From positions 1-27,661 of IMG/VR virus record IMGVR_UViG_3300045588_000057: DNA of 27,661 bases. The stretch is one strand, 5' to 3'. This DNA is from a virus. The notes under the pieces were generated by a model. The model did not search any database, was not told where the DNA came from, and saw only the letters and a program-made list of their open reading frames with translations. Shown here piece by piece: positions 16,595 through 27,661 of the stretch (the stretch's first letter is position 1; every line of letters starts with the position of its first letter). The translations under genes and the position numbers were made by a program.

Positions 16595-16740
16595 TTTTCG
16601 CGGTATTTTTTCAACGTTTTTTGTATTGCTGCTGTGCATGCTTTTAAATGCTCTTTTGGCACTCTGTAAGATCGTACCACGTACGGCACGCCTTTCGGTC
16701 CTGTGTTTTTGCGTGCGCCGCCGCTACCTTTTCCGCCCAT
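16576..16740 (-). CDS. Small basic protein between pentapeptide and primase genes (54 aa)
   Basis: The minus strand encodes 54 residues starting MGGKGSGGARKNTGPKG, followed by YVVRSYRVPKEHLKAC and a basic helix (KTLKKYREK). The start shares a TAATG junction with the pentapeptide-repeat gene, and the end overlaps the primase start, so it fits exactly in the operon. The 'R..(G)P.......YRVP....' layout resembles small DNA-binding-like proteins common in phages, but the function is unknown. Confidence 0.68.
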   Translation of the reverse strand: MGGKGSGGARKNTGPKGVPYVVRSYRVPKEHLKACTAAIQKTLKKYREKCTTSN

Positions 16741-17282
16741 TATTTTTTATATTTTAAATATGCTTTGTAAGCCTCGTAAACTGCTCGAATCTGTTTAAAC
16801 TCTGGCGTGTTTCGCTCCGTGCTTATCACTTCGTCCGACTTAAAAAAGGCGTCCCACCCCTTAACTGTTCGCTTTTCACAGCCTATGTGCACAAGATTGC
16901 CGCCAGTTATGCCGTGCGTCCATCTGCAGTGCATTGGTACTTTTTGAGCACGCGATAAGTTGGCACGCGATAAGTTGGCATCCGATAAGTTGGCACCGTA
17001 TAAGTTGGCATCCGATAAGTTGGCACGCGATAAGTTGGCATCCGATAAGTTGGCACGCGATAAGTTGGCACCGTATAAGTTGGCACCGTATAAGTTGGCA
17101 TCCGATAAGTTGGCACGCGATAAGTTGGCACCGTATAAGTTGGCACGCGATAAGTTGGCACCGTATAAGTTGGCACCGTATAAGTTGGCATCCGATTTCA
17201 AAGCGTTTAAAACCGTTTCGCGCATCGTTTCGGCGTTATCTTCAAAGATAGTTTCGCCGCTGAATCTGTTTAAAATTTTCAT
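16740..17282 (-). CDS. Pentapeptide-repeat protein (180 aa)
   Basis: Residues 32-111 are 16 tandem pentapeptides of form ANL(YG|SR|SD), giving a right-handed quadrilateral beta helix that can mimic DNA. The N terminus (1-31) is a short non-repeat cap. The C-terminal 69 residues (HCRWTHGITG, VHIGCEKRTVKGWDAFF, VYEAYKAYL) form a conserved tail I associate with phage pentapeptide-repeat proteins. Its function is unknown; some relatives protect or inhibit gyrase, which is a possibility here and not shown. It is the first gene after a strong early promoter and lies directly upstream of the primase-helicase genes. Confidence 0.9.
   Translation of the reverse strand: MKILNRFSGETIFEDNAETMRETVLNALKSDANLYGANLYGANLSRANLYGANLSRANLSDANLYGANLYGANLSRANLSDANLSRANLSDANLYGANLSDANLSRANLSRAQKVPMHCRWTHGITGGNLVHIGCEKRTVKGWDAFFKSDEVISTERNTPEFKQIRAVYEAYKAYLKYKK
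16950..17189 (-). repeat. 16 tandem 15-bp repeats encoding pentapeptides
   Basis: Each unit on the minus strand is GCCAACTTA followed by one of three codon pairs: TACGGT (Tyr-Gly), TCGCGT (Ser-Arg) or TCGGAT (Ser-Asp). The first ten bases (GCCAACTTAT on the strand read for YG, GCCAACTTAT/C as the pair begins T) are invariant, including silent third positions, which indicates recent expansion or continuing homogenisation. Variant order from the N terminus is YG, YG, SR, YG, SR, SD, YG, YG, SR, SD, SR, SD, YG, SD, SR, SR. Confidence 0.95.
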
Positions 17283-23631: not shown

Positions 23632-23794
23632 AAGCGAAGGTTTCGGCGACGACGTAGAGCGCGCGCTTTCAGTTTTAAGGCTCAAAAAGATAGCGGCGCT
23701 TATTGTGGGGCCCGACTGCCAGAGCTGCGCACAAAGACAAAAGCGCTGGAATGATCCACAGTTAAGAATTAATCAAATTTTGCATAAAAAATGA
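23621..23794 (+). CDS. Small Cys-containing protein just upstream of terminase (57 aa)
   Basis: A 57-residue frame begins ATG 23621 and ends TGA 23794, overlapping the terS start by 4 bp. It reads as a helical N-terminal half (GFGDDVERALSVLRL), then DCQSCAQRQKRWN. The 'GfGD.ve......gi......DC..C..R....N' layout is that of a small protein family often found directly upstream of terminase genes in Bacteroidota phages. The Cys pair suggests metal binding; function unknown. Confidence 0.68.
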   Translation: MARKSEGFGDDVERALSVLRLKKIAALIVGPDCQSCAQRQKRWNDPQLRINQILHKK

Positions 23795-24363
23795 TAACAG
23801 ACGACAGCGAAACAGGTAAAAACTTAACGCCAAAACAGCGTATTTTTTGCCATGAATATGTAAAAGACTGGAACGGCACCAGGGCGGCACGCGCGGCAGG
23901 CTATAAAGACATTTCTGCTACTAAAGTGGCCTATGCAAATCTGCAAAAGCCAAACATAAAGGCCTATATTGAGCACATACAGGCGGACCTTGCCAAACTG
24001 TCTGGCATTTCTGCTGTTAAGATTTTGGACGAACTTTCAAAAATTGCATTTTCTAGCATAGCGCAGCTGCATAATAGCTGGATAGAATTAGAAGCTTTTG
24101 AAGCTTTAACAGACGACCAAAAAGCAGCGATCGAGTCAATAGACACAAAGACAGAAACAAAGGACCTGGCAAACGGTGGCACTAAACGAGTCGACTATGT
24201 TAAAATTAAGCTGTACAACAAAATTGCAGCGATTGAAAGCATTAATAAAATGCTAAGCTATAATGCGCCAACGAAAACAGATCTAACTACGAAGGGCCAA
24301 GCCATAACGCCAGGCGCAGCACTTACGCAGGATCAAGTAAACAAGCTAATTGAAAAGCTGTAA
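23791..24363 (+). CDS. terS: Terminase small subunit (190 aa)
   Basis: The N-terminal half has the Terminase_2 pattern: LTPKQRIFCHEYVKDWNGT (12-30), ARAAGYKD (33-40), then ANLQKPNIKAYIE (48-60), a helix-turn-helix that recognises phage DNA ends or pac sites. The rest is helical with a C-terminal tail. It overlaps the upstream small gene and the large-subunit start (TAATG). It should bind the packaging site and recruit the large subunit; no pac/cos site could be identified in the sequence. Confidence 0.85.
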   Translation: MITDDSETGKNLTPKQRIFCHEYVKDWNGTRAARAAGYKDISATKVAYANLQKPNIKAYIEHIQADLAKLSGISAVKILDELSKIAFSSIAQLHNSWIELEAFEALTDDQKAAIESIDTKTETKDLANGGTKRVDYVKIKLYNKIAAIESINKMLSYNAPTKTDLTTKGQAITPGAALTQDQVNKLIEKL

Positions 24364-25709
24364 TGCACGAAAGCGACGAGCTTAAAGAAGTATTAAGGCA
24401 GGCTGCAAAGAGTAATTTTGTAGCCTTTTGCTATTACTATGACTACGGCTTTTTTAAACGCCGTCCATTTCTCAAAGACATAGCGCTGGCGTTCCAGGAC
24501 ATAGCAGACGGCAAAATATTAACGCTTGCCGTATCGTTGCCGCCGCGTGCGGGCAAAAGCTACATAACGACATTATTTTGCGCGTGGATCCTAGGACGTT
24601 TTCCAGAGGACAGCGTAATGCGTAACACATGTACGGCCCGACTAGCTGAAAAGCTAAGTTACGACGCGCGCGAAGTGGTAAAAAGCGAAAAGTTCGCCGC
24701 CGTGTTTGAGGACGTGCGACTGTCCGACGACCGCGCAGGCGTAAACGGATGGAACACGAACAAATCTAAAAACGTGGGCTATTTCGGCCAAGGCGTTGGC
24801 GGTACAATTATTGGATTCGGAGCTACAAAAGTGGCCATAACGGACGACCTTTTTAGAAACATGGAGGACGCTATGAGCGAAACAATAAGAGAAAAAACGC
24901 ACAGCTGGAAAGAAGCGACGCACGACAGTAGAAAAGAAAGCGGCTGCGCGGAAATCGACATAGGCACGCGCTGGACCAGGGACGACGTAATAGGCAAAAA
25001 CAGCGAGGGCGGACACTACGACCGCGAAATTATTGTGCCAGCGCTGGACGACAAAGGGCAAAGTTTCTGTGAAAACGTAATGACAACGGCCGAGTATTTG
25101 AAGAAAAAAGGCAAAACGCGCGCAGAGATTTGGGACGCAGAGTATATGCAGCAGCCCGTCGATATTAAAGGCCGACTGTTCACGGATCTAAAAACGTTTA
25201 CAGACTTAGACGCCGTACTGAAAAACTCGGAGGGCTGCGTCGCTTACGTGGACGTAGCGGACGAAGGCAGCGACTATTTGTGTGCGCCTTTCGGGCACAT
25301 AGTAGGCGATCTTATTTACATAACCGACGTAATGTACACGAAGGCGAACACAGACGTAACTACGCCGCAGCTCGCGGGCCTTTTGAATAAATATAAAGTT
25401 CGCTATACTAGAGTAGAAACTAACGGCATGGGGGGCATATTTATAAAAATGCTGCGCAATTTAGTTACAGATACGTCAATAATTGGCATACATAACCGCC
25501 AGAATAAAATAACGCGAATTATAATGAGCAGCGACTACGTGCTGCGCCGTTTCCGTTTCCTGGAGACAGACGAAGGCGAATACGGACAGTTTAAACGCGC
25601 CCTGCAGTCATTCCAAAAAGAAGGCGTAAACAAAAACGACGATGCGCCCGACGGTATTACGGGGCTGGCTGTAATGGTCCGCGGGTTTTTCCCGCACTTA
25701 GACGAATAA
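24363..25709 (+). CDS. terL: Terminase large subunit (448 aa)
   Basis: ATPase motifs are Walker A PPRAGKS (60-66), Walker B VAITDD (157-162) and motif III GTRW (201-204). The RNase-H-like nuclease has AYVDVADEG (294-302; Asp297 and Asp300 candidates), VETNGMGG (351-358) and DDAPDGITG (426-434; Asp430). It follows terS by a 1-bp overlap. All functional motifs appear intact, so it should power DNA packaging and cut concatemers. The next gene, portal, lies on the opposite strand, which is unusual for this pair. Confidence 0.92.
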   Translation: MHESDELKEVLRQAAKSNFVAFCYYYDYGFFKRRPFLKDIALAFQDIADGKILTLAVSLPPRAGKSYITTLFCAWILGRFPEDSVMRNTCTARLAEKLSYDAREVVKSEKFAAVFEDVRLSDDRAGVNGWNTNKSKNVGYFGQGVGGTIIGFGATKVAITDDLFRNMEDAMSETIREKTHSWKEATHDSRKESGCAEIDIGTRWTRDDVIGKNSEGGHYDREIIVPALDDKGQSFCENVMTTAEYLKKKGKTRAEIWDAEYMQQPVDIKGRLFTDLKTFTDLDAVLKNSEGCVAYVDVADEGSDYLCAPFGHIVGDLIYITDVMYTKANTDVTTPQLAGLLNKYKVRYTRVETNGMGGIFIKMLRNLVTDTSIIGIHNRQNKITRIIMSSDYVLRRFRFLETDEGEYGQFKRALQSFQKEGVNKNDDAPDGITGLAVMVRGFFPHLDE

Positions 25710-25765: not shown

Positions 25766-26959
25766 TTACAAATGCAAAATAAGTTTTTTCTCGTCGTCTG
25801 TCAGTGTTAACTGCTGCGCGATTTTTTCTAGTGCCTGCGCCCTACTAAGTAACGCCTGCGCGTCCTTGTTTTTGTCCTGCTGCAGCACACTGATATGTTC
25901 AAACGACGGCGTAAGGTACAGCCCTTCTTTGTCAAGGCCCAGCTGCTTAGTGATTCCGTCGTACATTATTTCCGTGTCCGGAATAATTGTACTATTGTAG
26001 GCCTGCTTTTCGCCCATTTCCACGTTTGAGAAAGTAGAGCCTGCGCCCGTAGGGTTTCCAAACATGTTAACATTCAATCCAAAATGATCTATTAACGCCA
26101 CTTTGTCGGCTGTCAGTTCTTCGAAAAGCATTAAGTCTTTTGTAGGAAAACTCATAGGCTCCCAGCGCATACGTTTATCGGTTACGGCAACCTCGCCGCT
26201 GTGCCTTTGCTTTAAATCGTTTAATATTTCTTTTTTGCCTGCGCTGTCTAAAGGTAGTGCGCCCTGCATATCGTTTGACTCTGTAGACAAAATACCAAGC
26301 GCAAAAAGGTTGCGAAGTAGTACGTTTCTTTTGGCATACTGCGCCCCTATGTTTGACAGCGGATAGCGCAGGGCCTGCAGTTTCGATTCAGTATTAAACA
26401 AGCTTATGCCGTCGGGGTCGCATAAATAAACCATTTCCAAAGGGTCGAAGCTCTGAAAAGTCGACGTATTGCTAACGGGCACAAGAAATTCCTTAATAAA
26501 ACCGTCGATAGTTGTCTGGCGAAGGTCCTTGCCTGTGCCTTGTACCTTTACATTATTCCAGGCTATAGGCGTTAAATTCTGGCGATTGCCTAGGCTGCCC
26601 TTTGGCGCAAAGATTAAAGCGTTATTTGTGAGTGCTTTGTTTATTGCTGTCATAGTCATAACGTCGCCCCAGGACTGCATAGCGTTTGGCCTGTCTATTA
26701 ATTCAAAAATCCAGTGCCCGTTTGGATCCACAACCGCGCCCATTTTGTCGCGAACTATTGGGTTTGCGCTTGCTACCATTTTGGCGTAACGGTTTATAAC
26801 TGTATTTAGTTCTGGAATTTCTCTATAAAGTACCCAAAGGTCCGAAGTATTTACCCAGTCGGGCACTGTTACGCCTAGTTGCTGCGTTGTAAAGCTTCTT
26901 TCGTAAAAGCCGTCGAAGCCTAAAAGGCGACCTATAAAGCCCGTTAAATCGTTTTTCAT
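25766..26959 (-). CDS. HK97-type phage portal protein (397 aa), on the opposite strand to terminase
   Basis: The sequence has the body of a Phage_portal (PF04860) protein: an N-terminal segment around LWVLYREIPELNTVINRYA, the middle DPLEMVYLCDPDGIS, and a conserved AAA-free stretch GLNVNMFGNPTGAGSTFSN (in parts: GLNVNMFGNP, GAGSTFSN) followed by EKQAYNSTI and a helical C terminus. It forms the dodecameric channel through which DNA is packaged. It is transcribed leftwards from its own divergent region and ends at its own terminator, while terL and the protease on either side run rightwards. Confidence 0.85.
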   Translation of the reverse strand: MKNDLTGFIGRLLGFDGFYERSFTTQQLGVTVPDWVNTSDLWVLYREIPELNTVINRYAKMVASANPIVRDKMGAVVDPNGHWIFELIDRPNAMQSWGDVMTMTAINKALTNNALIFAPKGSLGNRQNLTPIAWNNVKVQGTGKDLRQTTIDGFIKEFLVPVSNTSTFQSFDPLEMVYLCDPDGISLFNTESKLQALRYPLSNIGAQYAKRNVLLRNLFALGILSTESNDMQGALPLDSAGKKEILNDLKQRHSGEVAVTDKRMRWEPMSFPTKDLMLFEELTADKVALIDHFGLNVNMFGNPTGAGSTFSNVEMGEKQAYNSTIIPDTEIMYDGITKQLGLDKEGLYLTPSFEHISVLQQDKNKDAQALLSRAQALEKIAQQLTLTDDEKKLILHL

Positions 26960-27033: not shown

Positions 27034-27123
27034 ATGAAAAACGAAGCGACCCCTGCAGAGATCAAAGCGGTTAAAGCGGACAAAGAAACAGCCGTAAAAG
27101 GTGCAAAACTCGTTAAGAAATGA
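27034..27123 (+). CDS. Very small ORF upstream of the prohead protease (29 aa)
   Basis: A 29-codon ORF, Lys/Ala/Glu-rich (MKNEATPAEIKAVKADKE...), whose stop overlaps the protease start (ATGA). Close coupling and a promoter-like box 21 bp upstream support translation. It could be a leader ORF for coupling or a tiny head-assembly peptide. No family recognised. Confidence 0.45.
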   Translation: MKNEATPAEIKAVKADKETAVKGAKLVKK

Positions 27124-27661
27124 CTATAGAGGAAATTCTAGCAAATAGGGAACTGGCTACGCTAAAGAAAAAAAGCGAGGTCCAGAAGTCAGACCTTTCG
27201 GCGGTTTTATTTGACGCAGTTAGCAAAGCAGCGGCCGACAATATTACGGCCCTGGAGGTGCTAATTTACGAGGCGACAGTTTCACGTAAACGCAACGAGT
27301 TTATGTTTGAGCAGTACAAAAATGGCTTTGTACTTAATCATTCAGTAGGCATGCGATACGTAAAGATATTTTTCTGTTACGATAACGACGCGCCAGAGTA
27401 TGCAGCCGACAAAGAAAACTTCGACAAATACTATCCGCAAATTTTGAACAAAGAAGCTGCAGACGCTCGCAGCTATTTCTGGGCCATTACAGAGGCAAAA
27501 AATATAGAAGGGTCCGCAGTCGTTAAAGGATCTAACTTTTTAACGCCTGTACTATCCGTCGAAGTAATCGACGAGGACACAATAAAGGTAAAATGCGCCG
27601 TAAGTCCCAGCAATATTTTAGATTCACACGGCGACGTGCATATTCCTGGTATTTGGAAAAA
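27120..27661 (+). CDS. HK97-type prohead protease, apparently circularly permuted (N-terminal 180 residues; 3' end outside window)
   Basis: Starts at ATG 27120 and is open to the window end. After a leader (MTIEEILANRELATLKKK) comes RNEFMFEQYKNGF, NHSVGMRYVK (about 73-82; Ser75) and FWAITEAKNIEGSAVV (about 121-136; Glu130), the catalytic Ser and Glu blocks of U35 prohead proteases. VSPSNILDSHGDVHIPGIW (about 161-178) follows, a block that normally comes first in the domain. The catalytic His block is not seen before Ser75. The enzyme matures the capsid by cleaving the scaffold. Whether it is a true permutation or a duplication depends on sequence beyond the window. Confidence 0.78.
   Translation, partial: MTIEEILANRELATLKKKSEVQKSDLSAVLFDAVSKAAADNITALEVLIYEATVSRKRNEFMFEQYKNGFVLNHSVGMRYVKIFFCYDNDAPEYAADKENFDKYYPQILNKEAADARSYFWAITEAKNIEGSAVVKGSNFLTPVLSVEVIDEDTIKVKCAVSPSNILDSHGDVHIPGIWK

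Follow-up and report, generated by a model that had tools for sequence, protein, structure and literature searches.

In HK97-type phages, the prohead protease gp4 (Peptidase_S78/U35, PF04586) is encoded between the portal and capsid genes and contains inferred catalytic His, Ser and Glu residues, the last of them in an E-x-S-x6-N spacing. All prohead proteases studied cleave an N-terminal propeptide off the capsid protein (PMC7411985). A Ser/His mechanism and a fold common to these enzymes, herpesvirus assemblin and T4 gp21 (the procapsid protease superfamily) have been proposed in work cited in that paper, a likeness that comes from the literature and not from sequence. The prohead protease is one of the four head genes that PMC12451611 gives as hallmarks of Duplodnaviria. 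The closest named relatives of the protein described here are three ordinary-order "structural proteins" encoded between portal and capsid genes (Danklef_1, QQV90521.1; phi19:1, AGO47377.1; and that of Flavobacterium phage tooticki, QHB41040.1). These three and the clade described below have in common both core halves, the catalytic His/Ser/Glu, an N-terminal helix, a C-terminal tail and the gene position, but in the clade the two core halves stand in reverse order. Natural permutation of a phage enzyme is also known from the circularly permuted phage DNA adenine methylases (PMC7824862), which are unrelated in fold and function.

The window, that is, the whole stretch of DNA analyzed here, is an entire IMG/VR record of 27,661 bases, and the record holds no sequence past its end. 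The following features were located in it:

23791..24363, plus strand: small terminase subunit (PF03592, E 1.2e-28)
24363..25709, plus strand: large terminase subunit (phrog_38, E 5.7e-70)
25766..26959, minus strand: portal protein (PF04860, E 2e-23)
27120..27659, plus strand: putative permuted capsid-maturation (prohead) protease, 5' 180 codons; the ORF, the last gene of the window, runs off the contig end
27120..27209, plus strand: N-terminal helical segment, MTIEEILANRELATLKKKSEVQKSD..., at the same place in permuted and ordinary relatives (canonical HMM, alignments)
27252..27560, plus strand: Ser/Glu half of the core (residues 45-147), which comes first here and forms the C-terminal half in ordinary relatives
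27342..27344, plus strand: Ser75 of HSVGM, putative catalytic serine, aligned with HK97 gp4 S114 via the ordinary family
27507..27509, plus strand: Glu130 of E-x-S-x6-N, putative third active-site residue, aligned with HK97 gp4 E141
27561..27590, plus strand: new internal junction, residues 148-157 (EVIDEDTIKV), predicted beta hairpin
27567..27659, plus strand: beginning of the His half, IDEDTIKVKCAVSPSNILDSHGDVHIPGIWK; second here, with the catalytic His past the contig end

In the relatives, the protease gene adjoins the portal gene, and the major capsid gene follows it immediately downstream. The window contains the neighbouring portal gene, and the position of the capsid gene falls beyond the contig end. 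Full-length homologues of the protein are mostly 253-277 aa. Glu130 sits in EAKNIEGSAVVKGSN (the EGSAVVKGSN block), and SNILDSHGDVHIPGIW occupies residues 164-179, after the Ser75 and Glu130 blocks. This order had been read in an earlier note and was confirmed, although the third block ends at 179 and not at 178 as given there. At the junction, the old C-terminal strand meets the old N-terminal strand with almost no linker.

The nearest relatives of the window protease (L002, L003 and L005; 97 % protein and 93 % DNA identity) read through the point at which the window breaks off. They continue as ...DVHIPGLWKKAVNEGQYDLLLQEHEMEFDKVITDSVSGDLKVYTENIPVKELLSRF..., and after a short tail the proteins end at 259-267 aa. 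The LLLQEHEM within these three proteins carries the catalytic His195, which is invariant in the family, and no second Ser/Glu block follows the His half. The earlier note had proposed either a permutation or a partial tandem duplication, to be decided by the sequence past 27661. When this check was run on the relatives, the His block was followed by the end of the protein without a second Ser/Glu block; it is therefore the permutation that stands, and the duplication was dropped.

A canonical HMM of 277 positions was built from ordinary-order sequences only. It matched the permuted proteins as pieces with exchanged coordinates (E-values of about 1e-44 to 1e-56 for one piece and 1e-19 to 1e-26 for the other), and judged by these matches the swapped block order is far beyond chance. 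In L005, model positions 139-243 were found at residues 46-150 (E 2.8e-53) and positions 59-130 at residues 150-223 (E 2.2e-24). L084 gave three pieces, namely the N-terminal helix (model 3-47 at residues 4-48, E 4.8e-7), the Ser/Glu half (model 138-243 at residues 59-164, E 9.6e-52) and the His half (model 60-135 at residues 165-242, E 2.6e-26). The last two matches abut at residues 164/165, leaving no linker at the new junction. Since the pieces in L084 cover most of the model, nearly the whole ordinary core is present and the losses are variable linkers.

In alignments, the N-terminal helix (MTxEEILANKEL..KK..) stands at the chain start in both forms; the profile matched it clearly in L084, L085 and L090, and weakly in the remaining permuted proteins. 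Among full-length proteins, 25 of 35 permuted and 52 of 62 ordinary ones have an EPxxxTQ-type C-terminal tail motif within their last 60 residues; elsewhere in the chain the motif is rare. Because helix and tail keep their chain positions, the reading of the earlier note can be refined: the catalytic core alone is permuted, and the N-terminal helix and C-terminal tail are in place. Both tails are thus joined to the opposite core halves relative to the ordinary form. Fixed tails with swapped halves would fit a core that was duplicated in tandem between the tails and then lost its outer halves.

The relation to HK97-type proteases was examined by profile-profile comparison. A collinear match was obtained between the ordinary-order family and HK97 gp4 with eight of its relatives (probability 94, E 9.8e-8), and Danklef H110/S171/E226 fall on HK97 gp4 H65/S114/E141 with the E-x-S-x6-N spacing common to both. 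The order that the earlier note had given for the family, His block before Ser/Glu block, is accordingly the normal one in the wider family and in HK97 gp4. HK97-type proteases differ from the window clade in being unpermuted, and the similarity is remote and at profile level only. The PF04586 cut-off was reached neither by the window protein (no match) nor by the ordinary relatives (best E 0.073). The permuted profile aligned with the HK97 profile through the His half only, which now lies on the C-terminal side. When the halves of permuted proteins were rejoined in silico, the HK97-profile score was not raised and the match was not extended. Sequence searches of the PDB returned no related protease.

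Scans of viral contigs, with the window protein and alignments as queries, found the Ser/Glu half followed by the His half in 43 other distinct IMG/VR contigs from 29 metagenomes (contig names were counted by hand from the lists). In the window and in all 43 contigs of this clade, both halves are homologous to those of the ordinary family and their linear order is reversed. Every other relative examined, whether from viral contigs, named phages or prophage-like regions of Bacteroidales, Flavobacteriales and Chitinophagales genomes, has the His half before the Ser/Glu half; the proteins of Polaribacter phage Danklef and Cellulophaga phage phi19:1 are among these. The earlier note had allowed that the permuted order might be the normal arrangement in relatives, and this was not borne out. 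No permuted copy was found among named phages. No intermediate of a permutation (A-B-A, B-A-B or A-B-A-B) was seen among all loci scanned.

For the phylogenetic tree, the halves of 30 permuted and 37 ordinary representatives were aligned separately and put into one order. The permuted proteins form one side of a single branch (100/99 support; 200/200 bootstrap trees). They are nested among ordinary lineages, which occupy all deep branches, so a single event is the simplest reading. The tree is unrooted by itself, and this leaves room for the opposite polarity, with the permuted order ancestral and the ordinary order derived. We consider that polarity highly improbable, because the ordinary order is also that of HK97-type proteases and the permuted proteins make up a single nested clade. 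Identity inside the permuted clade falls to about 45-55 %, and the permuted form is therefore old and stable.

From these results, we propose that an ordinary chain of N-helix, His half, Ser/Glu half and C-tail became one of N-helix, Ser/Glu half, His half and C-tail. A tight turn would connect the old core ends, and the new ones would lie in the variable loop between the halves. The event may have begun with two tandem copies of the core flanked by the tails, from which the leading His half and the trailing Ser/Glu half would then have been lost. We expect the core to fold in the ordinary way, with His, Ser and Glu meeting in a single active site; the part cleaved by the protease would be the N-terminal region of the major capsid protein, whose gene is adjacent.

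Several observations bear on function. The permuted group shows no variation, where covered, at Ser75, Met78, Tyr80, Glu130, Ser132, Asn139, Asp168, Asp172, His174 and His195. His195 lies off the window's end, and Ser, Glu and His are kept in every permuted protein that covers them. Pairwise dN/dS was 0.03-0.25; for the window compared with its nearest relatives it was 0.04. Nine clade genomes of 34-42 kb contain one match each to the permuted profile, which is the sole protease of this kind detected in them; none of the nine (0/9) has a PF04586 match. The capsid proteins belong to PF05065 where detectable, and in the permuted as in the ordinary group their N-terminal region comprises about 105-120 residues. 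HK97-type proteases remove a capsid N-terminal region of this kind.

Structure models were built with AlphaFold2 on shallow alignments. The mean pLDDT was 59 for the permuted L005 protein and 37 for the ordinary L025 protein, too poor for superposition. The best part of the L005 model comprises strands 141-151 and 154-161 with a tight turn at the new junction (block pLDDT 82-85). Compared with PDB structures, this low-confidence model gave no convincing match: the best Z was 3.9, to a non-protease, and the hits were weak ones to PII-like and LepA folds (Z < 4).

We conclude, with a probability of roughly 0.9, that the gene product is a working, circularly permuted capsid-maturation protease, that its core was permuted once, and that it belongs to a tailed phage which probably infects Bacteroidota. 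The competitor that retains most weight, unlikely as it is, accepts the order as real and holds that the protein is no longer a protease but a structural or scaffold-like remnant, with another protein performing maturation. The relatives in named phages are indeed annotated only as structural protein, in the case of phi19:1 by mass spectrometry. Against such a remnant stand the invariant His/Ser/Glu and the strong purifying selection, and also the long N-terminal region that the capsid protein retains and the lack of PF04586 in the nine genomes of 34-42 kb. The permuted protein is most likely the maturation protease itself, with fold and active site that would be unchanged.

A partial tandem duplication, in which a second Ser/Glu block or a complete second copy follows a first copy without its N-terminal half, is the usual intermediate toward circular permutation and would be compatible with the window sequence by itself. 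It is very improbable, as all closed permuted relatives stop after the His half and no duplicated arrangement occurs among all loci scanned. Even less credit is due to an assembly chimera at the junction near 27560. Chimeras do occur in such data (L162 has a fold-back piece in an ordinary-order protease), but the same junction is present in 43 other contigs from 29 metagenomes, in a group that has diverged to about 45-55 % identity. The recurrence of one order across these contigs means neither assembly error nor duplication, and the assembly error that the earlier note had named as able to overturn its reading is excluded by 43 independent contigs.

A Bacteroidota host is probable, judging from the ordinary-order relatives. 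The assignment comes from relatives because neither bacterial genomes nor named phages yielded a permuted copy: the first scan of genome contigs was empty, the second gave ordinary-order relatives only, and none was present among 395 genomes of one phylum.

It is uncommon for a single-domain enzyme to be circularly permuted in nature when its catalytic residues lie to either side of the cut. No earlier report of a permuted prohead or capsid-maturation protease was found in full-text literature searches, whose coverage mostly excludes subscription papers; by their titles and abstracts, matches for the permutation term appear to mean genome ends or other proteins. Very probably, a phage lineage of Bacteroidota type replaced its essential capsid-maturation protease by a circularly permuted one in a single ancient event with the tails fixed, and this would be the first such case described in the procapsid protease superfamily within the literature searched. 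The permutation hits a viral enzyme that is normally very conserved. Apparently the fold can accept new chain ends in the loop that separates the His and Ser halves, and the tails would act through their terminal position and not through attachment to a particular half. Homology-based annotation and collinear alignment cope badly with permuted proteins, and the window protease is named by neither Pfam nor PHROGs.

Individual loci showed further peculiarities. In L082 (1315-1974), the permuted protease is nearly identical to that of L056 over the common part and has about 40 residues missing after the catalytic His block, which may be a deletion variant or an assembly error. In L052, two matches each to portal and capsid genes, on opposite strands, surround the permuted protease; the contig is possibly chimeric. 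L162 (4660-5600) was considered as a split or intermediate form and rejected, as it has an inverted fold-back piece and the gene in two frames and looks like an assembly artefact. In the ordinary-order proteases of one subgroup, L015 (5878-6792) and L025 (5848-6765), the Glu block is separated from the C-terminal tail by a CxxC...CxxC (zinc-ribbon-like) insert.

The portal gene of the window lies on the strand opposite to the terminase and protease genes. A minus-strand portal was also found in the rest of the window group, L015-L030, L118-L125 and L130, and a plus-strand portal in L010, L055-L082, L126-L128 and the deep ordinary lineages. As its orientation varies among relatives, the portal gene was inverted or exchanged more than once. 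Between portal and protease, a 29-codon ORF (MKNEATPAEIKAVKADKETAVKGAKLVKK, 27034-27123) overlaps the protease start as ATGA, and a tiny annotated gene is found between portal and protease in Danklef_1, phi19:1 and tooticki as well. Elsewhere in the window, a minus-strand ORF of 180 aa (16740-17282) contains a run of pentapeptide-type repeats (NLYGA/NLSRA/NLSDA).
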